Position numbers and translations under genes: made by a program. A stretch of 59,595 nucleotides of DNA from Actinomycetes bacterium (GTDB taxonomy: Bacteria > Actinomycetota > Actinomycetes > DATJPE01). The notes under the pieces were generated by a model. The model searched no databases, was not told where the DNA came from, and saw nothing but the letters and a program-made list of their open reading frames with translations. The DNA lies in the NCBI GenBank assembly GCA_035506535.1, contig DATJPE010000095.1:1-59595 (forward strand). The letters run 5' to 3'. Below are positions 37,872 through 58,486 of this stretch, one piece after another (position 1 is the stretch's first letter; the number at the start of each line of letters is the position of its first letter).

Positions 37872-38717
37872 TCAGGGGATGCTGTCGAGGATCTCGAGCA
37901 TCCGCGCGGTCATCGACTCGCGAGCCGGGGTCAGATAGCGCCTGGGATCGACGTTCGTCGGGTCGGCCTCGAGCTCGGCCCTGATCGAGCGGGTCAGCGC
38001 GACGTTGAGTGCCGTCCCCACGTTGACCTTGGCGATGCCTGCCGCCACCGCTGTGCGCAGCTCTTCGCCGGAAACGCCCGAGGAACCGTGCAGCACCAGG
38101 GGAACGCTCACCCGTTCGCGAAGGCGCGCGATGAGCTCGTGGTCGAGCCGGGCCGTGGGGTCCCGCATCGCGTGCGAGCTGCCCACCGCGACGGCGAGCG
38201 CGTCGACACCCGTCCGCCGGACGAAGTCGGCGGCTTCGTCCGGATCCGTCCGCACACCCTCGGCGTGCGCACTGAGCGGCGAGTCTGGCTTGCCCCCGAC
38301 GTAGCCCAGCTCGGCCTCGACCCACAGACCGGCCGCATGGGCCTGGTGTACGGCTCCGGCGGTGCGCCTGAGGTTCTCCTCGTAGGGCAGCAGCCCTGCG
38401 TCATACATGACCGAGCTGAAGACGGAATCGAGTGACTCGGCGAAGAGGGCGCCTTCGGTGACGTGGTCGAGGTGGAGCGCGATGGGGACGTGTGCATGAC
38501 GGGCGACCGCCTCCGTCGCCACCGCGATGGGCTCGAGCTGGCCGACGTGAAAGCGCACGGCGTTCTCACTGATCTGGAGGATCACCGGCCGGCGACTCGC
38601 GTTCGCCGCGGCCGCCGCGGCCTCGGCATGCTCGAGGCTGATCACATTGAACGCCACGACGGCGCTTCGTCGTGACCGTGCGCCCTCGACGAGCTCGCTC
38701 GTCGGCGCCAGCGTCAT
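37872..38717 (-). CDS. Class II ketose-bisphosphate aldolase (tagatose/fructose type)
   Basis: A 281-residue class II aldolase. AFNVISLEHAEAAAAAA near the start, HLDHVTEG with a zinc His, SSVMYDAGLLPYEENLRRT, VEAELGYVGGK, VAVGSSHAM, VPLVLHGSSGVSGEELRTAVAAGIAKVNVGT (in part), which hold the zinc ligands and phosphate loop. Closer to KbaY/GatY than to FbaA, since the length is short. It splits a ketohexose-1,6-bisphosphate into DHAP and glyceraldehyde-3-phosphate. The ATG overlaps the stop of the upstream kinase (ATGA), making it the last gene of a four-gene coupled operon. Confidence 0.88.
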   Translation of the reverse strand: MTLAPTSELVEGARSRRSAVVAFNVISLEHAEAAAAAANASRRPVILQISENAVRFHVGQLEPIAVATEAVARHAHVPIALHLDHVTEGALFAESLDSVFSSVMYDAGLLPYEENLRRTAGAVHQAHAAGLWVEAELGYVGGKPDSPLSAHAEGVRTDPDEAADFVRRTGVDALAVAVGSSHAMRDPTARLDHELIARLRERVSVPLVLHGSSGVSGEELRTAVAAGIAKVNVGTALNVALTRSIRAELEADPTNVDPRRYLTPARESMTARMLEILDSIP

Positions 38718-39643
38718 CCGGCGACACCACCGAGATCGCGGACGAGCACTCCCTCGCGCTGTGCGGCGTACACCTCGAGGTCCACCTCACCGGCCACCGG
38801 GCTCAGCACGGCGGCAGAGGCCAGGCCCACGCAGTCGCGCAACGTCTCCCTGAGGTCGGTCGCTACCGGGTCCACGCGCAGAGCGCGCGCGAGACCTGCC
38901 ACGACGGCGTCTCCGGCGCCCGTCGCATTGCCCTCGAGAACCGTCGCTGGCGTCGCCGCCCACACCCGACCGGATGCAGCGGCGATGACACCGTCGGGAC
39001 CCAGCGACGCCACCACGACGGTCCCGTGCATCTCCGAGAGCTCGCGTGCCGCGGCGACGGGTTCGCCGATCGGCGACGCCAGGGCGAGCTCCTCGGCGTT
39101 CGGCTTGACCACGGTCGGGCCGGCGGACAACGCGTCGAGGAGGGCAGGCCCACTGGTGTCGACGACGACCGGGACCTCGGCAGCCTTGGCCAGCTCGACG
39201 AGAGTGCTCATCGCGTCCTTCGGGACGCCGGACGGGACGACGCCGCTGATGACGACCACCCGAGCGCTGACCAGCGCAGCCGAGAAGGCCCCGAGCAGCT
39301 CAGGCCAGCAGTCGATCTCGGCCGGCTCGACGAGCACAGTGACGCAGCCGCTCGTCTCGTCGACGACGGTCACGGTCCGCCGGGTGGGAGCGCCGCTGTG
39401 GACGGCGGAGGTGGGGACGCCCAGATCGGCGAGCCCGCGCGCGAGATCGCCCCCGCCGGGACCGCCGAGGGGGAGGAGGACCTCGACCGGTTCACCGAGC
39501 TGGCGCAGGATCCGCGCGACGTTGACGGCCTTGCCCCCCGGCCTGGACGACACGGTTCCGACCCGGTTGGTGCTCCCCACCACGAGCTGGTCGACGCGGT
39601 AGGTGAGGTCGACGGCCGGGCTCAGGCAGACGCAGAGGATCAC
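38714..39643 (-). CDS. PfkB-family hexose-phosphate kinase (1-phosphofructokinase/tagatose-6-phosphate kinase type)
   Basis: A 309-residue PfkB kinase. ILCVCLSPAVDLTYRVDQL at the start is the 1-PfkB/LacC form, as is SSRPGGKAVNVARILRQLG (signature 1). Signature 2 is GNATGAGDAVVAGLARAL. The conserved VKPNAEEL is present. It would phosphorylate a ketohexose phosphate to the bisphosphate that the next gene's aldolase cleaves. GTG 39643 overlaps the stop of the SIS gene (GTGA). Confidence 0.87.
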   Translation of the reverse strand: MILCVCLSPAVDLTYRVDQLVVGSTNRVGTVSSRPGGKAVNVARILRQLGEPVEVLLPLGGPGGGDLARGLADLGVPTSAVHSGAPTRRTVTVVDETSGCVTVLVEPAEIDCWPELLGAFSAALVSARVVVISGVVPSGVPKDAMSTLVELAKAAEVPVVVDTSGPALLDALSAGPTVVKPNAEELALASPIGEPVAAARELSEMHGTVVVASLGPDGVIAAASGRVWAATPATVLEGNATGAGDAVVAGLARALRVDPVATDLRETLRDCVGLASAAVLSPVAGEVDLEVYAAQREGVLVRDLGGVAG

Positions 39644-40548
39644 GCGGGCGGGCCCTCGGCCAGCACGACGGAGCGGGTGAGGCTGCGCGGCCGGTCCGGG
39701 TCGAGCCGCAGCTGTTCGGCGCGACGGACGGCGAGCTGCTGGACGCGGATCAGGTCGGCCAGCGGGTCCAAGCCGTCCGCCACGAGCACGGCGCCGGTGG
39801 CCCTGACGTCGTCCGCGATGCCCTCGCGGGGCTCGCCGAACACCCACACCGCCCGCCCGGGCTCAGCGATCGCGATCGGCCCGTGCCGGTACTCCATCTG
39901 AAGGTATGCCTCCGTCCACGCCTGGGCGGCCTCGCGCATCTTGAGGGCCGCCTCCTGGGCGATCCCGTAGGCCCAACCTTGCCCAAGGAAGGAGATCTGC
40001 GTGGCGACCTGGGCGTCCGGGGAAACGGGGTCCTTGCCCTCGAGAACCGAGACTGCCTGAGCGATCACGGGATCGACGTCCTCCCCGAGGGACACCCTGA
40101 GCAGCATCAACGCCGTCGTGGCGAACACCGTCTGCACCACCGACTCCTCGTCGGCGAAGTCCAGCACGATGGATCTGGGCGTGACCTGCGTGACGGGCGA
40201 GCCCGGCACCGCGGTGATGGCCACGACCGGTGCGGACGTGGTTCGTACCGCCCGGATCACCTCGGTGGTCGTGCCCGAGCGCGAGATCGCCACTACCCGG
40301 TCGTACGAACGCCCCGCCGGGAACTGGCTGGCTGCGAACGCATCCGTCTCCCCCGCTCCCGCGTCCTCGCGCAGCGCCGCATAGGCCGCGGCCATGAACC
40401 ACGACGTCCCGCAGCCGATGACGGCGACGCGTTCGCCGGTCTGGGGAAGGCTCTCCGCGACATCAGCGGCCAGGTCCCGCGCCGTGGTCCACGCCCCAGG
40501 TTGGCCGAGGATCTCGCGGCTGACGTGTGGGAGTGCGTCGGTCGTCAT
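39640..40548 (-). CDS. SIS-domain sugar-phosphate isomerase/deaminase (AgaS/FrlB-like)
   Basis: A 302-residue protein with two SIS domains. The first reads VAVIGCGTSWFMAAAYAAL and VVAISRSGTTTEVIRAVR, the phosphosugar-binding Ser/Thr loop; the second has FLGQGWAYGIAQEAALKMREAAQAW (in part) and the MEYRHGPIAIAEPG loop seen in GlmS-like isomerases. There is no glutaminase domain, so it should release rather than add nitrogen. AgaS-type members turn galactosamine-6-P into tagatose-6-P; FrlB-type members deglycate fructosamine-6-P. The ATG overlaps the preceding kinase stop. It sits between two kinases, which fits the middle step of an amino-sugar or Amadori route. Confidence 0.85.
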   Translation of the reverse strand: MTTDALPHVSREILGQPGAWTTARDLAADVAESLPQTGERVAVIGCGTSWFMAAAYAALREDAGAGETDAFAASQFPAGRSYDRVVAISRSGTTTEVIRAVRTTSAPVVAITAVPGSPVTQVTPRSIVLDFADEESVVQTVFATTALMLLRVSLGEDVDPVIAQAVSVLEGKDPVSPDAQVATQISFLGQGWAYGIAQEAALKMREAAQAWTEAYLQMEYRHGPIAIAEPGRAVWVFGEPREGIADDVRATGAVLVADGLDPLADLIRVQQLAVRRAEQLRLDPDRPRSLTRSVVLAEGPPA

Positions 40549-41498
40549 GTGCCCTTCCTGACGGTCATGAGCTCCTCGCGTCTCGCCTGCGCGGCCGTTC
40601 CTCCGAGCGCTCGGACGCTGAGTGCACCGGCGAGGACAGCGCGCTCGAGGCACTCGGGCACGTCGAGGTCGTCGAGCCACGCATCGATGAAGGCCGCGTC
40701 GAAGCTGTCCCCGGCACCGGTCGTGTCCACGGTGACGACGGGGACACCGGCGACCTCCAGCAGGCCCCGGTCCGAGGCGACGGCGAAGGCGCCGAGGGCG
40801 CCGTTCTTCACCACCACCATGGGCCCCGAGCCGGCGATCCGTGCGGCCGCGACATAGGGGTCCTCATCGCGGCCGAGCGCGATCGCCTCGGCTCGGTTGG
40901 GGAGGACGAGGTCGAGCAGTGGTAGCAGCTCCTCGATCCCGTCCCAGACGCCGGCGGGGTCGCCGTTGGTGTCCAACGACGTCGACGCACCCACGTCCCG
41001 GGCCGCGACCAGGACCTGGGCGGCATGCGACAGCAGCGCTCGCTGGAGATACAGCGAACAGAGGTGGACGTGTCGGAGGCCGGCGCCGGCCAGCTCGGCG
41101 ATCGTGCGCACCACCTCGTCAACGGACAGCGTCGGGATCGCGCCCGGCAGGGTCAGCGTCGCGCGGTCGTCGCCATGGGAGAGCACCACCGACAGTCCGG
41201 TCGGTACGTCGGATCGGCGCCGCACGTGATCCACCGAGACGCCGGCGGCGGACAGCTGGTCGCAGACGTGAGCCGCGAACAGGTCCTCGCCCACCGCGGC
41301 GACCAGCGAGACCTTGCGGCCGAGGAGCGCAAGACCATGGGCGGCGATGCCCGCGGACCCGCCGATGACCAGGTCAGCCGCCTCGAGGAGCTGCTCCGCC
41401 TGGCCGAAGCGGGGGATCACGTCGCCCACGAGCAGCAGGTCCGGGTTGAGATCGCCCACCACGAGCACGCGAGAGAGATCACCGCTCACGGGGCACAT
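40545..41498 (-). CDS. PfkB-family carbohydrate kinase, first gene of the operon
   Basis: A 317-residue ribokinase-fold kinase. LVVGDLNPDLLLVGDVIPRFG at the start (in part), GGSAGIAAHGLALLGRKVSLVAAVGED (signature 1 region), VLPNRAEAIAL, VVVKNGALGAFA and signature 2 VVTVDTTGAGDSFDAAFIDAWL. The branch is like ribokinase, FrlD and adenosine-type kinases rather than LacC. It would phosphorylate the entering free sugar or amino sugar. ATG 41498 is used; GTG 41489 with AGGA 8 nt upstream is an alternative. The IclR gene lies 67 bp upstream on the same strand, so the operon may be read together with the regulator. Confidence 0.86.
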   Translation of the reverse strand: MCPVSGDLSRVLVVGDLNPDLLLVGDVIPRFGQAEQLLEAADLVIGGSAGIAAHGLALLGRKVSLVAAVGEDLFAAHVCDQLSAAGVSVDHVRRRSDVPTGLSVVLSHGDDRATLTLPGAIPTLSVDEVVRTIAELAGAGLRHVHLCSLYLQRALLSHAAQVLVAARDVGASTSLDTNGDPAGVWDGIEELLPLLDLVLPNRAEAIALGRDEDPYVAAARIAGSGPMVVVKNGALGAFAVASDRGLLEVAGVPVVTVDTTGAGDSFDAAFIDAWLDDLDVPECLERAVLAGALSVRALGGTAAQARREELMTVRKGT

Positions 41499-41565: not shown

Positions 41566-42345
41566 TCATCGCTGCGGAGGCACCGGGGCGAACTCGTGGG
41601 TGATCGCGCGCAGCTTTCGGCCGATGCGTTCCGCGTCGGTCACCTTCAACCTCTCCTTCGGCGCGGTGACGCTGACCGCGGCGACCGGCGTCGGAGCCCC
41701 GAAGAACAGCGGCACGGCGACGCAGCGCACGCCGACCTCGCTCTCCTCGTCGTCGAAGGACCAGCCGACGTCTCGGACCCGGCCCAGCTTGTCGGCGAGC
41801 TCATCGGCGCTGCGGGCGGTCTTGGGCGTTCGCGGGACCGTCTCCAACGGATGACGGGCGAGCCAGCCGGTGACAGCGGCGTCGTCGGGCAACGTGGACG
41901 CGAGGATGGCCTTGCCGACCGCCGTGACGTACGCCGGGTTGCGACCACCGATCGTGGAGGTCAGTCGGACGGTGTGGTCGGCTTCGACCTTGTCGACGTA
42001 GATGACGTCGCCGCCGTCGAGGACCGCCAGATGCGTCGTCTCGTTGAACTCGTCGCGGATGGCGATGAGCAGCGGGCGGACCATCGCGCGCAGGTCGAGT
42101 CCGTCGTAGAAGCCGAAGGCGGCCTCCACGATCGCCGGGCCGAGGAAGTAGGGACCGGCCGGCACGGGCTGTGCAGCGAAACCGTGCGCGCGCAGGACGA
42201 CCAGCAGCCGGTGCACCGAGCTCTTGGGCACCGAGAGAGCGCGGCTCAGCTCGTCGAGGGTGCTCCCGCCCGGCCGTTGAGCGAGCAGCCGGATCAGCCG
42301 CAGCGTGCGGTCGACCCCGGTGAGGGTGGGCGCCGTCGTGGTCAA
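41566..42345 (-). CDS. IclR-family transcriptional regulator
   Basis: A 259-residue IclR protein. N-terminal winged helix: GVDRTLRLIRLLAQRPGG, LDELSRALSVPKSSVHRLLVVLRAHGF (in part). C-terminal effector domain: THLAVLDGGDVIYVDKVEADH, PAYVTAVGKAILASTLPDD, VRCVAVPLFFGAPTPVAAVSVTAP. Its start codon is TTG. It is divergent from the alcohol dehydrogenase operon with a 64-bp gap holding GCGGAA-type half-sites and a GTAGC-N8-GCTAC palindrome, its likely operator. The effector is probably a sugar or sugar acid. Confidence 0.9.
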   Translation of the reverse strand: MTTTAPTLTGVDRTLRLIRLLAQRPGGSTLDELSRALSVPKSSVHRLLVVLRAHGFAAQPVPAGPYFLGPAIVEAAFGFYDGLDLRAMVRPLLIAIRDEFNETTHLAVLDGGDVIYVDKVEADHTVRLTSTIGGRNPAYVTAVGKAILASTLPDDAAVTGWLARHPLETVPRTPKTARSADELADKLGRVRDVGWSFDDEESEVGVRCVAVPLFFGAPTPVAAVSVTAPKERLKVTDAERIGRKLRAITHEFAPVPPQR

Positions 42346-42363: not shown

Positions 42364-42394
42364 GAGCGGAACGCTATGCCATGTAGCGGAATCC
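42364..42394. promoter_or_regulatory. 31-nt element with two GCGGAA half-sites (copy 1)
   Basis: Contains AGCGGAACG and TAGCGGAATCC with the GCGGAA cores exactly 20 bp apart. The same arrangement is found at 46961-46991 upstream of the GH4 gene; 21 of 31 positions are identical by my alignment. It lies between the IclR gene and the ADH operon, so it is a candidate IclR operator. Confidence 0.6.
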
Positions 42395-42409: not shown

Positions 42410-43387
42410 GTGGTACCGACTCGGGCAACCGGGATGCGCGCACTCGTGTTCACTCGCCCGGGTGACGTGGAGCTGCGCGAGGAGCCCGCTCCGGTCGCCG
42501 GTCCTGGAGAAGCGCTCATCCACGTCCGCTCCTCGGGGATCTGTGGCAGCGACCTGCACGGATTCTGGCACGTGGGGATGCGCAAGCCGCCGCTGATCAT
42601 GGGCCACGAGTTCGCCGGTGCCGACGCCGACGGCTCCCGCGTCGTCATCAACCCGCTCCTCACCTGCGGGACATGCGCCGCCTGCCTGCGCGGCCATTCC
42701 TCGGTGTGCGCGAACCGGCAGCTGATCGGCGTCAACCGCGCGGGCGGCTTCGCCGAGCAGGTCGCCGTGCCGACCTCCGCGCTGCATCGCCTTCCGGACG
42801 GTCTCCCTTGGGTGTCGGCTGCCCTCATCGAGCCGCTCGCCAACTCGGTGCACGCGCTCGACCTCCTGGGCGATCCGCAAGGCAGCCTCGGCATCGTCGG
42901 CGCTGGGTCGATCGGTTTGCTCACCTTCCTCGTGGCGCGATCCCGGGGGTACGACGTCGTCCTCGCCGAGCCGTCGGATGTTCGGCGCGACACCGCGCAG
43001 CGACTTGGTGCGACCGTCGTGCCCCACCTCGGGTCCGTCGACCGCGAGTTCGACGTGACGATCGACGCGGTGGGCAGCACCGAGTCTCGCCGTTCCGCTC
43101 TGGAGCGGCTCTCTTCTCGAGGCACGAGCGTGTGGATCGGGCTGGCCGAGGCGGATTCGACCATCGGGGCCAACGACATCGTGCGGAGCGAGAAGCGCGT
43201 CGTCGGCTCTTTCGCCTACACCGACGACGAGTTCGCTCACGCTGTGACGCTCGTGTCCACGCTGGACCTCACCTGGGTCACCCCGATCCCGATGGCTGAG
43301 TCGGAACGGACGTTCCTGGAGCTCGCCCGAGGTCGAAGCGACATCATCAAGGCCGTGCTCGACCTGTGCGAGCAGGGCGACCGATGA
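42410..43387 (+). CDS. Zinc-dependent alcohol/polyol dehydrogenase (MDR family)
   Basis: About 325 residues (317 from the ATG at 42434). Zn sites: catalytic SSGICGSDLHGFWH and MGHEFAGAD, structural four-Cys loop TCGTCAACLRGHSSVC. Rossmann motif GIVGAGSIGLLTFLVARSRGYDVV (in part). It resembles threonine/galactitol-1-phosphate/sorbitol dehydrogenases and should oxidise a secondary hydroxyl of a sugar or polyol with NAD(P)+. GTG 42410 is used because of the -10 box 6 nt upstream; the ATG at 42434 has no Shine-Dalgarno. It is first of an operon with an SDR, a lactonase, RidA and a PLP enzyme. Confidence 0.87.
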   Translation: MVPTRATGMRALVFTRPGDVELREEPAPVAGPGEALIHVRSSGICGSDLHGFWHVGMRKPPLIMGHEFAGADADGSRVVINPLLTCGTCAACLRGHSSVCANRQLIGVNRAGGFAEQVAVPTSALHRLPDGLPWVSAALIEPLANSVHALDLLGDPQGSLGIVGAGSIGLLTFLVARSRGYDVVLAEPSDVRRDTAQRLGATVVPHLGSVDREFDVTIDAVGSTESRRSALERLSSRGTSVWIGLAEADSTIGANDIVRSEKRVVGSFAYTDDEFAHAVTLVSTLDLTWVTPIPMAESERTFLELARGRSDIIKAVLDLCEQGDR

Positions 43388-44151
43388 GGGGGCTGGCCGG
43401 GAAGCGGGTCCTCGTCAGCGGTGGCTCACGCGGGATCGGTCAGACATCTGCGCGTCGCTTCCTCGAGGAGGGGTGCTCGGTGTTCCTCACCGGGCTCGAC
43501 GCGGACGAGGTGGAGGCCGCCGTCTCCGGCCTCGCCTCGTGGGGCACCGTGGCCGGCACGCGCTGCGACGTGTCCTCCGAGTCCTCTGTGAACGAGGCCC
43601 TGCAGAGCGCGGTGGCGTTCCTCGACGGCATCGACGTTCTCGCCAACAACGCCGGGATCGCCTGGCAGGAGCCGTTCCTGGACATGACCGCGAGCCACTG
43701 GGACCGGGTCATCGCGGTCAACCTTCGTGGCATGTTCCTCGTCGGGCAGGCGGTGGCGCGACATCTCGTCGCGGAGCGGCGTCCGGGCGTCATCGTCAAC
43801 ATGGCCTCGACGAACGCGCTCGGCGGTGAGGCGTACTACGCCCACTACAACGCCTCGAAGGGCGCGGTCCTGCAACTGACTCGCACCATGGCGGTCGAGC
43901 TCGGCGTCCATGGGATCCGAGTCAACGCCCTGTGTCCGGGCTACATCGAGACGCCGCTCAACCGTGAGATCGCCGCGAACAGCGGTGACCCGGACTTCGT
44001 GGCCACCTATGTGCGAGACAACATCCCGCTGGGTCGTACCGGCAGCGAGGAGGACGTCGCCGCCGCGTACGCCTTCCTCGCCAGTGACGAAGCCGCGTTC
44101 GTGCACGGGGCCGCGCTCGTGCTCGACGGCGGTCAGACCGCGGTCATGTGA
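43384..44151 (+). CDS. Short-chain dehydrogenase/reductase
   Basis: A 255-residue classical SDR. Cofactor motif VLVSGGSRGIGQTSARRF (residues 8-25), LANNAG, catalytic Ser and YxxxK in NMASTNALGG and HYNASKGAVLQLTRTMAVELG (in part), CPGYIETPL after it. The acidic residue LTGLDADE after strand 2 suggests NAD(H). ATG overlaps the ADH stop (ATGA). With the ADH and the lactonase it may convert a sugar or amino sugar to its lactone. Confidence 0.9.
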   Translation: MRGLAGKRVLVSGGSRGIGQTSARRFLEEGCSVFLTGLDADEVEAAVSGLASWGTVAGTRCDVSSESSVNEALQSAVAFLDGIDVLANNAGIAWQEPFLDMTASHWDRVIAVNLRGMFLVGQAVARHLVAERRPGVIVNMASTNALGGEAYYAHYNASKGAVLQLTRTMAVELGVHGIRVNALCPGYIETPLNREIAANSGDPDFVATYVRDNIPLGRTGSEEDVAAAYAFLASDEAAFVHGAALVLDGGQTAVM

Positions 44152-45098
44152 CAGGTCCCGGGAAGGTGGGTCACGGCATTGTGCAGGAGGGACGAGCTGG
44201 GGTGGAGCGAAGGACTGCCGAGCCGATCGTCCTCGATGCCGGTGACCTGCCGGAGTGTCCACGGTGGGACGACGTCTCCCAGCGCCTGCACTGGGTCGAC
44301 ATCTACGCCGGCCGCCTGTGCGTCTGGTCCCCGAGCACCGGCGAGCGGAGCACCTACGACGTGGGACAGCCGCTCGGCAGCTTCGCGTTCCGCGAGGGGC
44401 AGGGCTTCGTCCTGGCGCTGGCGGCGGGCTTCGCCCTCAGCGGCGCCGATCCGTCGGGATGGGAGCCCGTGGGCGCCCATCGCCTTCCCGACAGCCCGAT
44501 CCGCATGAACGACGGCGCGTGCGATCCGGTGGGACGCTTCCTCGCGGGAACGATGCGCCACGACGAGGCGGCCCACGGTGGTGCGCTCTGGCGGCTGGAC
44601 CCGCAGACGGAGTCTGGCCAGCGTCCTCCGCCGGAGCCGGTCGTCGCACCGACGTCCATCTCCAACGGCCTCGGCTGGAGCGCCGACGGCCGTACGCTCT
44701 TCCACGTCGACTCGGCCGACCGCGTGGTGTGGGTACGCGACTACGACGTCGAGACCGGAACCGTCGCCGCGTCGAGACCGTTCGTGACCTTCGACGAGGG
44801 CGACGGCTATCCCGACGGCCTCGTCGTCGACAGCGAAGGCTGTCTGTGGGTCGCCCTGTGGGACGGCGGGCGCGTCGTCCGCGTGGACCCGACCGGCGAG
44901 GTGCTCGCTGAGGTCCTGGTCCCGGCGCGTCGGGTGAGCAGCTGCACCCTCGGCGGGGTCTCGGGCAGCGAGCTCTACATCACGACGGCGCGTCGTCGAC
45001 TCGACCCGTCGGTGCTCGAGGCCGAGCCGCTGCACGGCTCGATCTTCGTCTGCCCTGTCGACGTCACCGCCCCGACCCTCGCCCGCTACGCGGGCTGA
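44148..45098 (+). CDS. SMP-30/gluconolactonase-like sugar lactonase
   Basis: A 316-residue six-bladed propeller. AGDLPECPRWDDVSQRLHWVDI, seen as LPECPRWDD and LHWVDIYAGRL, with the metal Glu; PIRMNDGACDPVGRFLAGTM, SISNGLGWSADGRTLFHVDSADRVV and GYPDGLVVDSEGCLWVALWDGG (in part) hold the Asn and Asp metal ligands. It hydrolyses aldonolactones. GTG 44148 overlaps the SDR stop (GTGA). A later GTG near 44200 would shorten the unconserved N-terminus. Confidence 0.87.
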   Translation: MTGPGKVGHGIVQEGRAGVERRTAEPIVLDAGDLPECPRWDDVSQRLHWVDIYAGRLCVWSPSTGERSTYDVGQPLGSFAFREGQGFVLALAAGFALSGADPSGWEPVGAHRLPDSPIRMNDGACDPVGRFLAGTMRHDEAAHGGALWRLDPQTESGQRPPPEPVVAPTSISNGLGWSADGRTLFHVDSADRVVWVRDYDVETGTVAASRPFVTFDEGDGYPDGLVVDSEGCLWVALWDGGRVVRVDPTGEVLAEVLVPARRVSSCTLGGVSGSELYITTARRRLDPSVLEAEPLHGSIFVCPVDVTAPTLARYAG

Positions 45099-45120: not shown

Positions 45121-45528
45121 ATGCCACGCCAGGCATTCCGCACCGAGCTCGCACCACGCCCTGCGGGTCCCTACTCCCAGAGCGTCCGGATCGACAACAT
45201 CGTCGTCGGCGCCGGCCAGGCCGGGATCCGGCCCGACGGATCGATCGTCGACGGGGTCCGTGAGCAGACCCGGCAGGCCTTCGCCAACCTGCTGGCCGCG
45301 ATGGCCGAGGCGGGCGCGACCGGCCAGGACGTGGTGAGCGTGCGGGTCTTCCTGCGCCACCCGGAGCAGTTCGCCGAGATGAACGAGGCCTATGCCGAGG
45401 TCTTCACCGAGCCCTATCCCGCGCGGACCACGGTCTTCGTGGGGCTGCCGGCCGGGTTGGAGGTCGAGGTCGACGCGCTCGCCGTGCTGCCCCGCACGGA
45501 TCCCTCCGAGACCGGGAGCGGAAGCTGA
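45121..45528 (+). CDS. RidA-family imine/enamine deaminase
   Basis: A 135-residue YjgF/YER057c/RidA protein. PAGPYSQSVRIDNIVVGAGQAG at the start (in part), QTRQAFANLLAAMAEAG, and PARTTVFVGLPAGLEVEVDALAVL with the conserved Arg. A GGAGGA Shine-Dalgarno precedes the ATG. RidA removes reactive enamine/imine intermediates made by PLP enzymes, so its place directly before a PLP enzyme is telling. Operon gap to the lactonase is 22 bp. Confidence 0.88.
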   Translation: MPRQAFRTELAPRPAGPYSQSVRIDNIVVGAGQAGIRPDGSIVDGVREQTRQAFANLLAAMAEAGATGQDVVSVRVFLRHPEQFAEMNEAYAEVFTEPYPARTTVFVGLPAGLEVEVDALAVLPRTDPSETGSGS

Positions 45529-45581: not shown

Positions 45582-46784
45582 GTGGCCGGGTCGGCGTCCC
45601 CTCCCCGGCTCCGGCTGCCCGGTGCGGACCCGGGGGCACGGCGCGACCTGGAGACGCCGGTGGCGGTCCTCGCCGAGTCGGCGTTGCTCCACAACGCACG
45701 GTGGATGCGCACCTATTGCGACGCGCACGGGTTCGTTGCCGCCCCGCACGCCAAGACCAGCCTGTCGCCCGAGCTGTGCCGACTACAGATGGCAGAGGGC
45801 GCCTGGGGAATGACCACGGCGTCCGTGGCGCAGGCGCAGGCGGTGCTCGGGATGGGCATCGACCATGTGCTCATCGCCACCGAGGTGATCGACGAGGCGC
45901 CGCTGCGTGACCTGGTCACCGACGTGATGGCAGAACCGCGGCGCGAGCTCGTCGTCTTCGTCGATTCGGCACGAGGCATCGGGGCGCTCGAGACAGCTGT
46001 GCGCGAGGTCGGCGCCGACCCCGGACGGGTCGGTGTCCTCGTCGAGCTCGGGCAGCCGGGAGCTCGCAGCGGCGTGCGCGACCGGACGACGGGGATCGAG
46101 CTGGCCGAGCGAGTCCATGCTTCCTCGACACTGACACTGCGAGGCGTGGGCGCGTACGAGGGCACGATCGCGAGCGCGCGGACACCGGACTCCCTCGACC
46201 GCGTCGACGCGTTCCTGCACGACGTCGTCGTGCTGGCGAGCGAGCTGCGGGACCGCGGCTTGGTCGGCGACCACGACATGGTGTCGGTCGGCGGCAGCAT
46301 GTACCTGGATCGGGTGGGCACGGTGCTGTCGCCGGTCGCAGCATCCGGGGCAATGGTCCTTGTGCGAAGCGGCTGCTACATCACTCACGACCATGGGCTC
46401 TACGACGCGGCCGCTCTCCTCACGCCATCGCTTCCGCCGCTGCGAGCGGCCCTTCAGGTGTGGGCTCGAGTGGTCTCGCAGCCTGAGCCGGGCCTTGCCA
46501 TCCTCAACGCGGGACGGCGACACGTGTCCCACGACAACGGACTGCCGGTGCCCCTGCACCTGGTCGGCGACGACGGGCGCGCGGTGGACGCGTCGGCCAC
46601 GTCGGTGTCCGCGCTGAGCGACCACCACGCCTCCCTGAGATTCCCCGACACGGTCCCGGTGAGGGTGGGCGACCTGGTCGCGCTCGGGATCTCGCATCCC
46701 TGCACCACCTTCGACAAGTGGTCGACACTCCTCGTCCTGGACGACGACGGTCAGCAGGTCGGACTGTGCCGCACCCTGCTGTGA
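45582..46784 (+). CDS. Fold-type III PLP enzyme, D-threonine aldolase/D-serine dehydratase-like
   Basis: A 400-residue alanine-racemase-fold protein. LETPVAVLAESALLHNARWM near residue 25, PHAKTSLSPELCRLQM with the PLP Lys, a barrel of repeated strands (GVLVELGQPGARSGVR), VSVGGSMYLDRVG, and the C-terminal metal motif GISHPCTTFDKW (His, Cys) typical of DSD1/D-threonine aldolase. It would act on a D-beta-hydroxy amino acid. GTG 45582 is the only start I can defend; no Shine-Dalgarno is visible. A hairpin CGAGCT-N6-AGCTCG (46818-46835) follows and may mark the operon end. Confidence 0.83.
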   Translation: MAGSASPPRLRLPGADPGARRDLETPVAVLAESALLHNARWMRTYCDAHGFVAAPHAKTSLSPELCRLQMAEGAWGMTTASVAQAQAVLGMGIDHVLIATEVIDEAPLRDLVTDVMAEPRRELVVFVDSARGIGALETAVREVGADPGRVGVLVELGQPGARSGVRDRTTGIELAERVHASSTLTLRGVGAYEGTIASARTPDSLDRVDAFLHDVVVLASELRDRGLVGDHDMVSVGGSMYLDRVGTVLSPVAASGAMVLVRSGCYITHDHGLYDAAALLTPSLPPLRAALQVWARVVSQPEPGLAILNAGRRHVSHDNGLPVPLHLVGDDGRAVDASATSVSALSDHHASLRFPDTVPVRVGDLVALGISHPCTTFDKWSTLLVLDDDGQQVGLCRTLL

Positions 46785-46960: not shown

Positions 46961-46991
46961 TGGCGAAACGTCATTCCGCCTAGCGAAATCC
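46961..46991. promoter_or_regulatory. 31-nt element with two GCGAAA half-sites (copy 2)
   Basis: Contains GGCGAAACG and TAGCGAAATCC with the same spacing as copy 1 at 42364-42394. It also holds a TTCCGCC in opposite orientation (GGCGAAACG and TTCCGCC form an imperfect dyad). It ends 18 bp before the GH4 start. Confidence 0.55.
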
Positions 46992-47009: not shown

Positions 47010-48350
47010 ATGACCACCGCCGTCACGTTCGTGGGGGCCGGGAGCGTGGAGTTCACACGCGACCTCGTCGCCGACATCCTCCGCTTCCCCGACCTCGGTC
47101 CCGTGGACCTGCGTCTGCACGACATCGACCCGGACCGGCTGAGCACCGCCGAGGGGGTTGCGCGGTCGGTCGCGCGATCAACCGGAACCTCGCCCACGGT
47201 GTCGACCTTCGCCGACCGTCGTGCGGCGCTCGAGGGTGCTCGGTTCGTCATCAACACGGTGGCCGTAGGAGGTCTTGACGCCACACGGGCCGACTTCGAG
47301 GTCCCGGCCCGCTTCGGGCTGCGCCAGACCATCGGCGACACGCTCGGCATCGGCGGCATCTTCCGTGCCCTTCGCACCTTCCCCGTCCTCGACCAGATCC
47401 TCGAGGACATGCAGGAGGTGTGCCCCGACGCCTGGTTGCTGAACTACACCAACCCGATGGCGATGAACATCTGGTACGCCTCGCTGAGGGCGCCCTCGAT
47501 CCGGACGGTGGGCCTTTGCCACTCGGTTTACTGGACCGTGCGGGGCCTGTGCGAGGTCATGGGGGTCGACCACGAGGCAGTCTCCTACGACTCGGCGGGT
47601 GTCAACCACCAGGCGTGGTTGCTGCGCCTGGAGAAGGACGGACGGGACCTGTACCCGCTGCTGGACGAGCGCATCCGCGACGACCCCGAGCTGCGGCGGC
47701 GGGTACGGGTCGACATGTACAAGCGGATCGGCTACTACCCGACGGAGACGAGCGAGCACTCCAGCGAGTACGTGCCCTGGTACCTGCACAACGAGGCGGA
47801 GATCGAGCGCCTGCGCATCCCGATCGGGGTCTATCTCGACATCAGCGAGGAGAACGCCGCGACCTTCCAGGCGACCCGCGACGCGATCGTCGCGGGTCGC
47901 GACATCGAGGTTCACGACGGTGCGACGGAGTACGCGCCGCAGGTGATCCACAGCATCGTCACCGGCACCACGCGACGCATCCACGCCAACGTCCCCAACC
48001 GGGGGCTCATCTCGAACCTGCCGAGCGGGGCTGCGGTGGAGGTGCCGTGCTACGTCGACGAGCTCGGCGTCCACCCGGTGGCCATGGGTGACCTCCCTGC
48101 ACAGTGCGCGGCGCTGAACCGCTCCTTCCTCAACGTGGCAGAGCTCACCGTGCGCGCGGCCGTCGACGGTGATCCGCGGTTGGTCCGGCTCGCCGCGATG
48201 GTCGACCCCGCGACGGCGGCCGCGCTGACGGTCGACGAGATCTGGCAGCTCTGCGACGCGATGACCCAGGCACACCGGGACCGGCTCCCCCTCGCGCTCA
48301 GGAACGAGCGCCTCCCGTTCGTCACCGACTCCGTGGAACGTCGGGCGTGA
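47010..48350 (+). CDS. Family 4 glycosidase (alpha-galactosidase/MelA-like)
   Basis: A 446-residue GH4 enzyme, NAD+ and Mn2+ dependent. NAD motif VTFVGAGSVEFTRDLVADIL, then RQTIGDTLGIGGIFRALRT, LNYTNPMAM, the metal and substrate motif GLCHSVYWT (Cys, His), and GVNHQAWLL. CHSV places it with MelA-type alpha-galactosidases and relatives rather than the 6-phospho-glycosidases. ATG 47010 is chosen because the NAD motif follows at once. The frame is open back to 46881 but without homology. It converges on DeoR with a 59-bp gap. It probably releases the sugar that the ABC importer brings in. Confidence 0.9.
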   Translation: MTTAVTFVGAGSVEFTRDLVADILRFPDLGPVDLRLHDIDPDRLSTAEGVARSVARSTGTSPTVSTFADRRAALEGARFVINTVAVGGLDATRADFEVPARFGLRQTIGDTLGIGGIFRALRTFPVLDQILEDMQEVCPDAWLLNYTNPMAMNIWYASLRAPSIRTVGLCHSVYWTVRGLCEVMGVDHEAVSYDSAGVNHQAWLLRLEKDGRDLYPLLDERIRDDPELRRRVRVDMYKRIGYYPTETSEHSSEYVPWYLHNEAEIERLRIPIGVYLDISEENAATFQATRDAIVAGRDIEVHDGATEYAPQVIHSIVTGTTRRIHANVPNRGLISNLPSGAAVEVPCYVDELGVHPVAMGDLPAQCAALNRSFLNVAELTVRAAVDGDPRLVRLAAMVDPATAAALTVDEIWQLCDAMTQAHRDRLPLALRNERLPFVTDSVERRA

Positions 48351-48409: not shown

Positions 48410-49180
48410 TCAGGGGACCGGGACGACGTGCACCGTGGGGCCGAGGCGCTCCAGCTCGGCGGCGTCGCTCGGGTCGACACCGGAGTCGGTCACGATGTCG
48501 GACGCGACCGAGATGTCGACGATCTTGGCGAAGCCGCGCCGACCCACCTTGCTGGAGTCGGCGACAACGATGACGCGCTCAGCCGCCCGGACCAGCGCGC
48601 GGTTCGTGTGGGCCTCGACCTCGTGATGGGTGGTGAAGCCCGCCGCGGCGCTCACGCCGTCGACGCCGATGACGGCAATGTCCAGGTTGATGTTGGCCAG
48701 CGTGAGCTCCGCGAGCGGCCCGACGAGCTCGTAGGACTCGGCTCGGGCACTTCCGCCGCACACCACGAGTTCGATGTTCGACCGCACAGCGAGCTCGGAG
48801 GCGATGTTGAGCGCATTCGTGACCACCCGCAGGCCAGATCGCACGGCCAGGGCACGCGACACCTCGGTGGTCGTCGTGCCACCGTTGAGCCCGATCGAGG
48901 TGGCCTCGGGCGGGATGAGCTGCGCGGCGGCCTCGGCGATCGCCCGTTTGGCGTCGTAGTGCTGACCTCCGCGGTAGCGCATCGGCAGCTCGTAGAGGAC
49001 GCCCGACGCGACCGCCCCGCCATGGGTCCGGGTGAGCAGCTTCTGCTCCTGGAGCAGGTGGAGGTCGCGACGCACCGTGGCCTCGGAGACCTCCAGCTGG
49101 GCGGCGAGGTCCAGCACGGCCACCGTTCCGTGCTGGTTGAGCTGCTGCAGGATCTGCCCGAGCCGGTCCTCCTGGCGCAT
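48410..49180 (-). CDS. DeoR-family transcriptional regulator
   Basis: A 256-residue DeoR/GlpR-type repressor. Winged helix: MRQEDRLGQILQQLNQHG, LDLAAQLEVSEATVRRDLHLLQEQ (in part), THGGAV. Sugar-phosphate-binding domain: IGLNGGTTTTEVSRAL, VVTNALNIASEL, VVCGGSARAESYELVGPLAE, GVDGVSAAAGFTT. ATG 49180 is preferred because TAAGGT lies 7 nt upstream; GTG 49189 overlaps that box. It is divergent from the sugar ABC operon and is its natural regulator, with a phosphorylated sugar as effector. Confidence 0.9.
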   Translation of the reverse strand: MRQEDRLGQILQQLNQHGTVAVLDLAAQLEVSEATVRRDLHLLQEQKLLTRTHGGAVASGVLYELPMRYRGGQHYDAKRAIAEAAAQLIPPEATSIGLNGGTTTTEVSRALAVRSGLRVVTNALNIASELAVRSNIELVVCGGSARAESYELVGPLAELTLANINLDIAVIGVDGVSAAAGFTTHHEVEAHTNRALVRAAERVIVVADSSKVGRRGFAKIVDISVASDIVTDSGVDPSDAAELERLGPTVHVVPVP

Positions 49181-49187
49181 GTCGCGC

Positions 49188-49193
49188 ACCTTA
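49188..49193 (-). promoter_or_regulatory. Putative -10 box TAAGGT for leaderless deoR-type gene
   Basis: TAAGGT on the minus strand is followed by 7 nt and ATG 49180. Confidence 0.4.
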
Positions 49194-49386: not shown

Positions 49387-50730
49387 ATGGTCCTCGTCCA
49401 GCCGGCCGGACGTCCGCACCGCCCGCGGACCCGCCGCACGACCCTGCTCGTCGCGCTCGGCGTGGCTGCCGCCCTCGGCGCCGCCGGATGCAGTGGCGGG
49501 AGCAGCAGCGGCTCCGCGGGGGGTAGCGCGAGTGCCGGTGGGGGCTCGACGTCGATCACCGTCGCTCACGGCTACACCGACGCCGAGGCGGCGGAGCTCA
49601 AGAAGCAGGTGGCGCAGTGGAACTCCGCGCACCCCAAGGAGACGGTCAAGCTCCTCTTCAACGGCGGCAACGACAGTGCGCTCCAGAAGACGGTGGCCGG
49701 ATTCACCGCAGGCAACTTCCCGGACGTCGCCTACGAGTACGGCTCGTCGGCCGCGCAGCTGGCGCGTCAGCCCAAGCTCGTCGACCTCACCGACAAGGTG
49801 ACGTCACCCGCTCTGGACTGGCAGGACTTCTTCCCCTCGGAGCGACAGGCCGCGACCGTCAACGGCAAGGTCGTGGGCATCCCCTCGCTCGTCGACAACC
49901 TCAGCCTCGTCTACAACAAGGACCTGTTCGCCAAGGCGGGTGTCGCTCCGCCCACGAACGACTGGACGTGGCAGGACTTCCGCGCAGCCGCCAAGCAGCT
50001 GTCCAACCCGAGCTCGAAGACGTACGGCTGGGCGTACGTCAACGACGGGAGCGAGGACACCGTCTGGCGCTACCTGGCGATGCTGTGGCAAGCCGGCGGC
50101 GACCTGCTCAACGCGGACAACACCAAGCCCGTCTTCAACTCCCCTGCCGGTCTCGCCGCCCTGCAGCTGCTGCACGACATGGCCGTCACGGACAAGTCCG
50201 TCTACCTCGACACGGGGAACCAGAACTACATCAACCTGTTCAACAGCGGCAAGATCGCCATGCTCTGGACGGGCCCGTGGGACCTGTCGAGCATCAACAG
50301 CGACGTGAACTACGGCGTGACCTATCTGCCCGGCTACAACGGCAACCACGAGACCATCTCGGGACCTGACCTCTACATGCTCTTCGACCACTCCGCGCCA
50401 CGTGTCCAGGCGGCGCTGGACTTCATCTCGTGGCTCACCTCGGCCAAGGTGCACATCGACTTCGCCATCGCGACCGGGGACCTGCCGCTTCGTCAGTCCG
50501 AGACGCAGCTGCCGGCCTACCAGACCTTCCTCACCAAGTACCCCGCGGAGAAGGTCTTCGTCAGCAATCTCGCCAACGTCAAGCATGTTCGGCCGAACAT
50601 CGCGAACTATGCCGAGGTCTCAGCCGCAGTCGGGCAGATGATCCAGAGCGTCCTGCTGGGACAGTCCCAACCGGCCGCCGCCCTGAAGTCCGCGAGCAGC
50701 CAGGTCTCGGCAGTTCTCGCCGGTTCGTGA
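49387..50730 (+). CDS. Sugar ABC transporter substrate-binding lipoprotein
   Basis: A 447-residue extracytoplasmic binding protein. Signal: RRTTLLVALGVAAALGAAGC with lipobox Cys at residue 35, then a Gly/Ser linker. Mature part is cluster-1 (MalE/UgpB-like): WNSAHPKETVKLLFNGGNDS, NFPDVAYEYGSSAAQLARQPKLVDLTD (in part), GIPSLVDNLSLVYNKDLFAKAGV (in part), NSGKIAMLWTGPWDLSSI. A GAAGGAGC Shine-Dalgarno precedes ATG. It is first gene of the importer operon, opposite to DeoR. Confidence 0.92.
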   Translation: MVLVQPAGRPHRPRTRRTTLLVALGVAAALGAAGCSGGSSSGSAGGSASAGGGSTSITVAHGYTDAEAAELKKQVAQWNSAHPKETVKLLFNGGNDSALQKTVAGFTAGNFPDVAYEYGSSAAQLARQPKLVDLTDKVTSPALDWQDFFPSERQAATVNGKVVGIPSLVDNLSLVYNKDLFAKAGVAPPTNDWTWQDFRAAAKQLSNPSSKTYGWAYVNDGSEDTVWRYLAMLWQAGGDLLNADNTKPVFNSPAGLAALQLLHDMAVTDKSVYLDTGNQNYINLFNSGKIAMLWTGPWDLSSINSDVNYGVTYLPGYNGNHETISGPDLYMLFDHSAPRVQAALDFISWLTSAKVHIDFAIATGDLPLRQSETQLPAYQTFLTKYPAEKVFVSNLANVKHVRPNIANYAEVSAAVGQMIQSVLLGQSQPAAALKSASSQVSAVLAGS

Positions 50731-51722
50731 GCGAGTCACTTCGCCCGGGCGAGACGCCCGTCATCGCTCGTGCAAGCCGACCGCGAACGATCCTGCCACG
50801 CCCCGAACGCCCATCGACGCGATCCAGGCGCAGCTTCGGCGGACGTCGATCCGAGGCCCTCAACGGATGGGCCATGGTCTCGCCCTCCGTGCTCCTGATC
50901 GCGCTCTTCGGCATCGTGCCCGTCATCTGGGCCGTGGCACTGTCGTTCCAGCGCAACGACCTCCAGACACCGCCGACCTGGGTCGGCCTGCACAACTACC
51001 GCCTGCTCGTCCACGACCCCGTCTTCCGCGCCTCGGTCAACCACAGCATCGTGTACACGGCGCTGTTCGTGCCGATCACCTTGGTGCTCTCGCTCCTCAC
51101 CGCCGCGGCCCTGAACCGGCGGGTGCGGGGGATGACGTTCTACCGGCTCGCGGTCTTCATCCCGGTGGTGACCTCCACCGTCGCGACCGGGGTCATCTTC
51201 ACCTGGCTGATGGACCCGAGCTACGGACTGATCAACGCCGTGCTCCAGAAGCTCGGGCTGCCGACCCAGATGTTCTTCGCCTCGCCCGACCAGTCGCTGT
51301 ACTCGATCGTCATCATGACGGTCTGGGGCTGGGTCGGTTTCGGTGCGCTCATCTTCCTCGCCGGCCTCCAGGGGATCCCGCAAGACCTGGTGGAGGCCGC
51401 CCTCATCGACGGCTGCACCCGCAGCGGAGCGTTCTGGCGGATCCAGGTCCCCCTGCTGCGGCCGGTCAGCGGATTCCTGTTGGTGTGGCTCACGATCAAT
51501 TCCCTCCAGCTGTTCGACGAGGTCTACGTGACGACGAAGGGCGGGCCCGAGCACTCGAGCACCGTGGTCGTCTATTACCTCTACGAGCAGGCCTTCGAGT
51601 TCTTCCACGCCGGCTACGCGGCCGCGATCGCGGTCGTCCTGTTCGCCGCGATCGCGCTCATCACGGTCATCCAGCTGCGAGTGGCGCGCGATCCGGCAGC
51701 CGGGGGTGGTGAGGCCCGGTGA
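50727..51722 (+). CDS. Sugar ABC transporter permease (MalF/UgpA-like)
   Basis: A 331-residue permease with a basic N-terminal tail of about 45 residues and six helices. Helix 1 is WAMVSPSVLLIALFGIVPVIW (in part); EAA loop is VEAALIDGCTRSGAFWRIQVPLLRP. GTG 50727 overlaps the binding-protein stop (GTGA). No ATPase gene follows, so a shared MsiK-type ATPase encoded elsewhere is expected. Confidence 0.9.
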   Translation: MSESLRPGETPVIARASRPRTILPRPERPSTRSRRSFGGRRSEALNGWAMVSPSVLLIALFGIVPVIWAVALSFQRNDLQTPPTWVGLHNYRLLVHDPVFRASVNHSIVYTALFVPITLVLSLLTAAALNRRVRGMTFYRLAVFIPVVTSTVATGVIFTWLMDPSYGLINAVLQKLGLPTQMFFASPDQSLYSIVIMTVWGWVGFGALIFLAGLQGIPQDLVEAALIDGCTRSGAFWRIQVPLLRPVSGFLLVWLTINSLQLFDEVYVTTKGGPEHSSTVVVYYLYEQAFEFFHAGYAAAIAVVLFAAIALITVIQLRVARDPAAGGGEAR

Positions 51723-52582
51723 CAGCGGTCGAGGCGGTGCGCTCGGCACCAGCGAGCGGGCGCCGCAGGAGGCGACTGCGGCTCCCGTCGGCGTGGCACC
51801 TGGTGCTCATACCCACCGCTGTGCTGATGGCGATGCCGCTGGTGTGGATGTTCGTCACCAGCGTCTCGACTCTGGAGGAGACACGCCAGTACCCGCCGCA
51901 GCTGCCGTCGAGCCTGGACTGGCACAACTACGTCGTGGCCTGGACGGACTCGCCCTTCGGGCGCTGGCTGATCAACAGCACGATCGTCTCGGTGACGTGT
52001 GTCGTGAGCAACATCGTGTTCTGCAGCATGGCCGGGTACGCCTTCGCACGCCTTCGCTTCCCGGGAAGCCGCATCGTCTTCTTCGCGATGCTGGCGACGC
52101 TCATGGTGCCGTTCCAGGTGGTCATGATCCCCACCCTGCTGATCGTCAAGCATCTCGGTCTCGTCGACACGCTGCCGGCGCTCATCGTCCCGAACCTGGT
52201 CACGCCCTTCGGGATCTACCTGCTTCGACAGTTCTTCCTCTCCTTGCCCATCGAGCTCGAAGAGGCTGCGCTCATCGATGGGGCGAATCGCATGCGAATC
52301 CTGCGCAGCATCCTGCTTCCCCTCATGGGCCCGCCGATCAGCACGCTCGCCGTTCTCACCTTCCTGTCGGTGTGGAACGACTTCCTTTGGCCACTCGTCG
52401 TCACGTCCTCGCCGAACATCATGACCGTGCAGCTTGGCCTGTCGACGTTCCAGAGCGCGCACTACACGAACTGGCCTGTCCTTATGGCTGGGACACTGCT
52501 GAGCCAGCTGCCAGTGCTGCTGCTCTTCGTGATCGGGCAACGGTACTTCGTCCGCTCGATCGCAACGACCGGTATCAAGTAG
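51719..52582 (+). CDS. Sugar ABC transporter permease (MalG/UgpE-like)
   Basis: A 287-residue permease. Helix 1 HLVLIPTAVLMAMPLVWMFVTSV (in part), then YAFARLRFPG typical of MalG, EAA loop LEEAALIDGANRMRILRSILLPLM (in part), and a C-terminal QRYFVRSIATTGIK close to the GAVKG-type ending of the family. GTG 51719 overlaps the previous stop. It ends the operon and converges on the next gene with a 4-bp gap. Confidence 0.9.
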   Translation: MTAVEAVRSAPASGRRRRRLRLPSAWHLVLIPTAVLMAMPLVWMFVTSVSTLEETRQYPPQLPSSLDWHNYVVAWTDSPFGRWLINSTIVSVTCVVSNIVFCSMAGYAFARLRFPGSRIVFFAMLATLMVPFQVVMIPTLLIVKHLGLVDTLPALIVPNLVTPFGIYLLRQFFLSLPIELEEAALIDGANRMRILRSILLPLMGPPISTLAVLTFLSVWNDFLWPLVVTSSPNIMTVQLGLSTFQSAHYTNWPVLMAGTLLSQLPVLLLFVIGQRYFVRSIATTGIK

Positions 52583-57110: not shown

Positions 57111-58433
57111 TCAGGACGCGACGACGGCATAGACCCGGCGCGGGCCGACACCCTTCAGCTCGTGCTCGCCGCGGTCCTCGAAGGTGATGCCCGAGCCCGA
57201 CACGAGGTCGCGGACCGTCGAGGAGACGAGGACTTCCCCGGCACCGGCGAGAGCCGCGATTCGGGCGCCGGTGTGCACCGCGATGCCCGCGATGCTGTCC
57301 CCGAAGACCTCGCACTCCCCGGTGTGCAGGCCACTGCGGATGTCCAGGCCCAGGTCCCTGACGACCTCACGGATCGCCACCGCGGCGCGCACGGCCCGTG
57401 CCGGCCCGTCGAAGGTCGCGAGGAAACCGTCGCCCGCCGTGTCCACCTCGTGCCCGCGGAAACGCTCGATCTGACGGCGGACCGCCGCGTGGTGTCGGCC
57501 GAGCAGCTCGGTCCAGCTACGATCCCCGATCCGACCCAGCCGCTCGGTCGAGCCGACGATGTCGGTGAACAGGACGGTCGCCAGCACCCGGTTGGGCTCC
57601 GGCGCGGGTCGCACGCCGGTGGCGAGCTCCTCGATCTCGTCGACGATCGCGTCCCGGTTTTCGGTCCACCACGAGTGGTCGGCGCCGGGCAACTCGACGA
57701 AGCGGGCGCCCGGGATGCGCGAGGCGATATAGCGCCCCTCCTCGACGTGCGCGTCGCGGTCTCCCGTGGCGTGCATCACCACGGTGGTGGTGCCGATCGT
57801 CGGCAGGATGTCGCGGACGTCGACCAAGGTGTTCATCTTCATGAGCGCGAGGGCGGCCGCGGGGCTGGCCGAACGCTTGTAGTAACGGGAGACCTCGGCG
57901 AGCTCGGCCGGCCCGAGGCTCGGTGCGACGTCCTCCCATCCGAGGCCCGACAACCAGTTCTGCTCCACGACGGCGAAGGCCTCCTGGCGCTCCTCCCAGG
58001 TCGGTGCCCAGGGGTAGTCGGAGGTCCAGAGACGGCGCGCCGTGCTCCCGTAGGTCACCAGGCCGACGGTCCGTTCGGGGTACGTCGCGGCGAAGAGCAT
58101 GCTCATGTTGCCGCCCTCCGAAGCCCCGAAGACGACGGCCCGTTGCGAACCCACGGCATCCATGACCGCCCGGACGTCGTCCATGCGCTGCTCCAAGGTG
58201 GGCAGCTCGTGCGTCGACACGGGGTCGGACATCCCGGTGCCGCGCTTGTCGAAGAGGATCAGCCGGGAGAAGGTGGCCAACCGCTCGAACCCCGCCGCCA
58301 GCTGCGGGAGCTCCCAGGCGTACTCCACGTGCGACACCCAGCCGGGGACGTACACGACGTCGACTGGGCCATCGCCCACGGTCTGGTAGGCGATGCTGAC
58401 CTCGCCCGACCGGGCGTAGCGGGTCTCCGGCAT
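57111..58433 (-). CDS. Alpha/beta-hydrolase-adenylate/guanylate cyclase fusion
   Basis: About 440 residues. N-terminal alpha/beta hydrolase: VVYVPGWVSHVEYAWELP, LILFDKRGTGMSD, nucleophile elbow FGASEGGNMS near residue 100, and a late His in GADHSWW. C-terminal class III cyclase from about residue 265: ATVLFTDIVGSTERLG with metal Asp, VDTAGDGFLATFDGP with the second Asp, LHTGECEVFGDSIAGIAVHTGARI (in part). Such fusions are common in actinobacteria and make cAMP in response to an unknown ligand of the hydrolase domain. ATG 58433 is used; a GTG 7 codons earlier is possible. It lies 53 bp downstream of a Crp-type gene on the same strand. Confidence 0.9.
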   Translation of the reverse strand: MPETRYARSGEVSIAYQTVGDGPVDVVYVPGWVSHVEYAWELPQLAAGFERLATFSRLILFDKRGTGMSDPVSTHELPTLEQRMDDVRAVMDAVGSQRAVVFGASEGGNMSMLFAATYPERTVGLVTYGSTARRLWTSDYPWAPTWEERQEAFAVVEQNWLSGLGWEDVAPSLGPAELAEVSRYYKRSASPAAALALMKMNTLVDVRDILPTIGTTTVVMHATGDRDAHVEEGRYIASRIPGARFVELPGADHSWWTENRDAIVDEIEELATGVRPAPEPNRVLATVLFTDIVGSTERLGRIGDRSWTELLGRHHAAVRRQIERFRGHEVDTAGDGFLATFDGPARAVRAAVAIREVVRDLGLDIRSGLHTGECEVFGDSIAGIAVHTGARIAALAGAGEVLVSSTVRDLVSGSGITFEDRGEHELKGVGPRRVYAVVAS

Positions 58434-58486
58434 GCGAGTCGGCACGCCGCTCACAGTGACAGACCGCAGGTCGGTGCGGAACGCAG

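Follow-up and report, generated by a model that had tools for sequence, protein, structure and literature searches.

Which sugar is consumed by the compact four-gene operon at positions 37872-41498 of a 59,595-nucleotide stretch from an Actinomycetes bacterium (GenBank assembly GCA_035506535.1, contig DATJPE010000095.1; the whole stretch is hereafter "the window")? The operon encodes a PfkB-family sugar kinase (K1), a double-SIS protein (SIS), a second kinase resembling 1-phosphofructokinase (1-PFK) and LacC (K2), and a class II aldolase. We consider it probable that these genes belong to a galactosamine catabolic cluster that is fed by an ATP-binding cassette (ABC) transporter and enters glycolysis through tagatose-6-phosphate, all substrates and reactions being predictions. 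The transporter would import a galactosamine-containing alpha-glycoside, most likely derived from sticky fungal or bacterial polysaccharides, and a family 4 glycoside hydrolase (GH4) would free the galactosamine. K1 would then form galactosamine-6-phosphate, which SIS would deaminate and isomerize to tagatose-6-phosphate and ammonia; K2 would phosphorylate this product to tagatose-1,6-bisphosphate, and the aldolase would cleave the latter to dihydroxyacetone phosphate and glyceraldehyde-3-phosphate. Control would be exerted by an AgaR-like DeoR repressor and, in this genome, by an IclR-family regulator.

The four gene identities, already proposed by a first-pass annotation of the window, agree with domain calls from Pfam and NCBIfam models with curated cut-offs. 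The 4-bp overlaps that it described are present in the sequence at all three junctions (ATGA at 40545-40548, GTGA at 39640-39643 and ATGA at 38714-38717), all on the minus strand, and the true start of SIS is the ATG at 40548. The order K1-SIS-K2-aldolase was found again in Frankia-type loci, namely in Pseudofrankia asymbiotica (L062) and in four genomes of one family (L034-L037); L062 and one of these four (G198, L035) may represent a single strain. Since the order recurs in these loci, we do not attribute it to chance.

In the same loci, the core lies within a larger module with the order permeases, sugar-binding lipoprotein, DeoR, GH4, K1, SIS, K2 and aldolase. Because this set adjoins the four core genes in Pseudofrankia and its relatives, we regard the transporter, GH4 and DeoR genes of the window as parts of the module. 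The window proteins are 71-78% (binding lipoprotein), 75-76% (permease 2) and 74% (DeoR) identical to their Frankia-type counterparts. The same gene set is carried by G157 (L141), which belongs to another family, with a DeoR protein 80% identical and a binding lipoprotein within the 71-78% range, although no K2 was seen in the part of that locus that was read. The earlier statement that the locus has no Aga or Frl transporter was wrong, as a sugar ABC transporter (49387-52582) belongs to this conserved module. The window differs from the module of its relatives by six genes, from IclR to a pyridoxal phosphate (PLP) enzyme, lying between K1 and GH4. Searching by eye for a DeoR operator shared by the ABC/DeoR and GH4/K1 promoters yielded only short, unconvincing similarities.

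The SIS protein is central to the assignment. Its closest matches in sequence and fold are archaeal GlmD-type glucosamine-6-phosphate deaminases (2cb0 and 2dec), and its AlphaFold2 (AF2) model has a pLDDT of 92. The positions equivalent to the GlmS catalytic residues E481, K485, E488 and H504 are invariant across 130 members of the SIS family. E488 and H504, which we take to be the catalytic glutamate and the ring-opening histidine of GlmS, correspond to E206 and H222, placing SIS within the superfamily of GlmS/GlmD-type double-SIS deaminases and isomerases. Named subfamilies fit poorly: SIS scored 23.3 bits against the AgaS model TIGR02815 (cut-off 529), aligning with Escherichia coli AgaS over 56 residues only, and 87.8 bits against the GlmD model NF041128 (cut-off 580), even though GlmD is the best fold match. 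Because both cut-offs are missed by far, we rejected membership in AgaS and GlmD, while a GlmD-like deaminase/isomerase mode of action remains likely from the conserved residues. Two candidate markers were discarded: the arginine that replaces the C-terminal Lys603 of GlmS is present in all 130 relatives and so separates no contexts, and valine in place of arginine at SIS residue 141 tracks a single clade rather than the whole GH4/K1 context.

Of 395 genomes sampled from the class, 110 encode a SIS ortholog, with identities of 41-70%. The genes near 121 distinct orthologs include the aldolase (93), K2 (46), a ROK kinase (39) and NagA (20), and the three such NagA proteins that were checked all pass the TIGR00221 cut-off. 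GH109 is an alpha-N-acetylgalactosaminidase family; a Streptomyces locus (L068) holds a GH109 gene beside DeoR-SIS-aldolase, and this GH109 sequence cluster recurs in about 10 such loci. In a SIS tree built by a quick method and containing several long branches, GH4/K1 loci are interleaved with NagA/ROK loci, which suggests that one reaction probably serves both, with galactosamine-6-phosphate as the shared denominator. The SIS of the window is not to be confused with NagS, a Streptomyces SIS protein of a different family, which is a GlcNAc-6-phosphate dehydratase related to MurQ (PMC12680351). As a separate observation, about nine Streptomyces loci (for example, L070, 11046-14114) have, beside the SIS ortholog, a gene for a large secreted GH31 protein that carries an NPCBM-associated domain; this protein may act on glycans containing N-acetylgalactosamine (GalNAc).

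Downstream of SIS, the evidence favors tagatose phosphates. K2 lies just under the cut-off of the 1-PFK subfamily TIGR03168 (214.8 vs 216.4 bits) and fails the LacC model TIGR01231 (124.3 vs 409.6); its best solved relatives are the tagatose-6-phosphate kinases 2awd and 2jgv. The aldolase passes the class II ketose-bisphosphate aldolase model TIGR00167 (236.1 vs 215.6) and fails the tagatose-bisphosphate aldolase model TIGR01858 (205.7 vs 443.6), and its relatives include KbaY/AgaY (1gvf). GatZ/KbaZ belongs to tagatose-bisphosphate metabolism. In a lineage of another family (G060, L225), a single operon contains DeoR, a distant SIS relative (~30% identity), the binding lipoprotein, two permeases, GH4, K1 and a GatZ/KbaZ-like gene, whose product matches PF08013 with 506 bits and the agaZ_gatZ model with 512.6 bits (cut-off 568.8). 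GatZ/KbaZ has been proposed to be a tagatose-6-phosphate kinase (PMC12118421), and its company in this operon points to tagatose phosphates. We favor tagatose-6-phosphate as the SIS product because fructose-6-phosphate would need no such partners as K2, the aldolase and GatZ/KbaZ.

Upstream of SIS, the context of K1 points to galactosamine-containing polymers. The AF2 model of K1 shows a ribokinase fold (pLDDT 89) with the catalytic GAGD motif kept. Ribokinase-family kinases usually contact their sugar through the asparagine of GGxxxN; in K1 and 13 relatives this residue, at position 51, is replaced by an invariant isoleucine. Relatives of K1 occur in 15 of the 395 genomes, and GH4 adjoins K1 in nearly all loci read. 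A GH114 gene lies ~3-5 kb from K1/GH4 in five genomes of three genera (G086, G299, G366, G100 and G225). In G100 (L227), GH114, with an apparent lipoprotein signal, opens an apparent operon GH114-binding lipoprotein-permease-permease-K1-GH4. K1 and GH114 occur together in 12 sampled genomes, against an expectation of 5 (Fisher p = 2e-4, ignoring phylogeny). Characterized GH114 enzymes are endo-alpha-1,4-galactosaminidases (PMC12054363). The genome studied here encodes one GH114 protein, with an apparent signal peptide, which shares 49% identity with the K1-linked GH114 proteins of G100 and G225. A more specific scheme is conceivable, which we hold tentatively and at somewhat less than even odds: the pathway would serve de-N-acetylated polygalactosamine (fungal galactosaminogalactan or bacterial Pel), with exported GH114 producing alpha-1,4-galactosamine oligomers, ABC import, GH4 as an intracellular alpha-galactosaminidase, K1 as a PfkB galactosamine kinase and a non-AgaS SIS. 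If confirmed, the GH4 activity would be new to its family, and the PfkB galactosamine kinase, for which the papers retrieved gave no precedent, likewise new. Separately, a GH4/K1/SIS locus in G130 (L226, 163-1985) carries apparent Amidohydro_2 and FAH-family genes, recognized by eye, a hint of an oxidative sugar branch.

Several points weigh against galactosamine as the substrate. To our knowledge, GH4 enzymes of the MelA type act on galactosides and not on galactosaminides; the GH114 gene of this genome lies on another contig, unlinked to the cluster; no equivalog model reaches its cut-off for SIS, K1, K2 or DeoR (the last scoring 201.5 bits against the AgaR model NF040755, cut-off 260); and the neighbor co-occurrence statistics ignore shared ancestry, with many of the SIS loci coming from Streptomyces. 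The main rival is galactose, which we judge unlikely. GH4 would then be an alpha-galactosidase, K1 would phosphorylate C6, SIS would be a galactose-6-phosphate isomerase replacing LacAB, and K2 and the aldolase would complete a tagatose-6-phosphate pathway independent of the phosphotransferase system (PTS). GH4 indeed exceeds the cut-off of the MelA-type alpha-galactosidase model NF011657 (583.7 vs 486 bits) and is 41% identical to E. coli MelA, and no NagA adjoins the operon. However, elsewhere the genome carries galK (309 bits) with a neighboring gene that resembles galT on reading, so that a second galactose route is less needed; the SIS family recurs with NagA and, in Streptomyces, GH109, and GH114 lies near K1/GH4 in five genomes.

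Import of the sugar in N-acetylated form, with K1 producing GalNAc-6-phosphate and an unlinked NagA deacetylating it before SIS, seems to us a little less likely still. This genome does encode a NagA on contig C74 (228.9 bits, cut-off 225.65), and NagA adjoins SIS in other lineages; yet the loci that combine GH4 and K1 showed no NagA in the vicinity of SIS, and where NagA occurs it is accompanied by the ROK kinase rather than by K1. The first-pass annotation had read the operon as phosphorylation, removal of an amine, second phosphorylation and cleavage, acting on an amino sugar such as galactosamine or on an Amadori compound. The steps and the galactosamine option gained support from the NagA, ROK, GH109, GatZ/KbaZ and GH114 partners, whereas the Amadori option was abandoned on the FrlB and FrlD scores. 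Under that option, K1 would be a fructosamine 6-kinase and SIS a deglycase, as the pairing of a PfkB kinase with a SIS protein recalls FrlD/FrlB. Similarity to FrlB is weak and partial (24%, 34.7 bits), K1 reaches 45.7 bits against FrlD (cut-off 247), and the neighbors in relatives are galactosaminidase families. Moreover, a deglycase giving glucose-6-phosphate needs no dedicated second kinase and aldolase. We hold a fructosamine substrate to be highly improbable.

The IclR gene shares the strand of K1 and precedes it by 67 bp; it is probably the first gene of the same transcription unit. Divergent from it runs a cassette from an alcohol dehydrogenase to the PLP enzyme, followed by GH4. The cassette is not a random neighbor: in G304 (L220), a genome of another family, the locus with GH4, DeoR, aldolase, SIS and ABC genes also holds homologs of its short-chain dehydrogenase/reductase (SDR), RidA and PLP enzyme, and the last two are again present in G126 (L219), where an Amidohydro_2 gene is next to SIS. 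Identities to the window proteins are 62% for the SDR (L220), ~62% for RidA (both loci) and 45-48% for the PLP enzyme (both loci), whose closest solved relative is the D-serine deaminase 3gwq. The cassette may oxidize galactosamine at C1 to galactosaminate, open the lactone and dehydrate a D-amino-hydroxy acid, with RidA finishing the imine, but its role in the pathway is uncertain. Two 29-bp candidate IclR sites agree at 21 of 29 positions, and 8 of 2000 shuffles were as good. No further match with up to three mismatches was found in the genome; as the pattern was made from these two sites, this uniqueness is weak by itself. The two sites suggest that IclR governs the operon, the cassette and GH4 jointly.

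Features of the probable galactosamine cluster and its surroundings in the window, with predicted functions
Feature	Position	Strand	Basis or remark
Class II ketose-bisphosphate aldolase, predicted tagatose-1,6-bisphosphate aldolase	37872-38717	-	PF01116, 282 bits; TIGR00167
K2, 1-PFK/LacC-like kinase, predicted tagatose-6-phosphate kinase	38714-39643	-	GTG start; PfkB/1-PFK
SIS, double-SIS phosphosugar deaminase/isomerase, predicted galactosamine-6-phosphate to tagatose-6-phosphate and ammonia	39640-40548	-	PF01380
K1, PfkB-family sugar kinase, predicted galactosamine 6-kinase	40545-41498	-	PF00294, 133 bits
IclR-family regulator	41566-42345	-	PF01614/PF09339; TTG start assumed
Candidate IclR operator 1, divergent IclR/alcohol dehydrogenase promoter	42366-42394	+	Similarity to site 2
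Zn-dependent alcohol dehydrogenase	42434-43387	+	PF08240/PF00107
SDR, glucose-1-dehydrogenase-like	43366-44151	+	NF005559, 231.7 vs cut-off 215; start uncertain
SMP-30/gluconolactonase-type lactonase	44148-45098	+	PF08450, 247 bits
RidA enamine/imine deaminase	45121-45528	+	PF01042
D-threonine aldolase/D-serine dehydratase-like PLP enzyme	45582-46784	+	PF14031
Candidate IclR operator 2, upstream of GH4	46963-46991	+	Similarity to site 1
GH4 glycosidase, MelA alpha-galactosidase type, predicted release of galactosamine (or galactose)	47010-48350	+	NF011657
DeoR-family repressor, AgaR-like	48410-49189	-	Top model AgaR NF040755
ABC sugar-binding lipoprotein	49387-50730	+	71-78% identical homologs in Frankia-type and G157 loci
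ABC permease 1	50727-51722	+	GTG start; GTGA overlap with binding lipoprotein; ~50% identical homologs at same place
ABC permease 2	51719-52582	+	NF008210, 147 bits

Two side observations concern other genes. Contig C30 of this genome (14000-32000, L235) holds a second sugar cluster, probably for a different amino sugar; as read by eye, its ROK-type regulator and ABC transporter are accompanied by a GH4-like gene, another SIS gene and a gene resembling BadF-type kinases. At 57111-58553, the window encodes a protein like mycobacterial LipJ (lipase/adenylate cyclase; 423 bits, under the cut-off of 800).

Polygalactosamine is a component of fungal and bacterial extracellular matrices. Galactosamine is among the amino sugars that serve as markers of microbial residues in soil (PMC11014887), and endo-acting polygalactosamine hydrolases are known (PMC12054363). 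In the open-licence literature, we found no description of the fate of polygalactosamine after the first cut in Actinobacteria, and nothing on point for an actinobacterial galactosamine pathway with SIS and PfkB proteins. The cluster offers such a route, with two candidate new activities (a GH4 alpha-galactosaminidase and a PfkB galactosamine kinase) and a predicted non-AgaS deaminase family found in those 110 of the 395 genomes. This non-standard enzyme set could explain how galactosamine-bearing fungal and bacterial polysaccharides are recycled.

Among known systems, the cluster most resembles the Aga/Gam pathway of Enterobacteriaceae and the GalNAc pathway of Shewanella (PMC3668189, PMC12118421), with which it would share the conversion of galactosamine-6-phosphate to tagatose-6-phosphate, its phosphorylation and cleavage by a class II aldolase; an AgaR-like DeoR-type regulator is likewise present. 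Unlike Aga/Gam, it has a PfkB kinase instead of a PTS or AgaK, would take up its substrate through an ABC transporter combined with GH4, lacks a deacetylase and has a LacC-like kinase in place of AgaZ; as its SIS is not AgaS by sequence, we view it as a non-orthologous variant of the Aga pathway. The LacC-like kinase and the predicted tagatose-bisphosphate cleavage recall the Gram-positive LacABCD pathway, from which the cluster differs in having neither LacAB nor a PTS and in using a class II aldolase rather than LacD. The Frl fructoselysine pathway also places a PfkB kinase beside a SIS protein, whereas the window proteins show low similarity to FrlB and FrlD, an additional kinase and aldolase, and other partners. 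Finally, SIS shares its top sequence and fold match and its catalytic glutamate and histidine with archaeal GlmD, and departs from it in model score (88 vs 580 bits), in the family-wide arginine replacing the C-terminal lysine and in its tagatose context.

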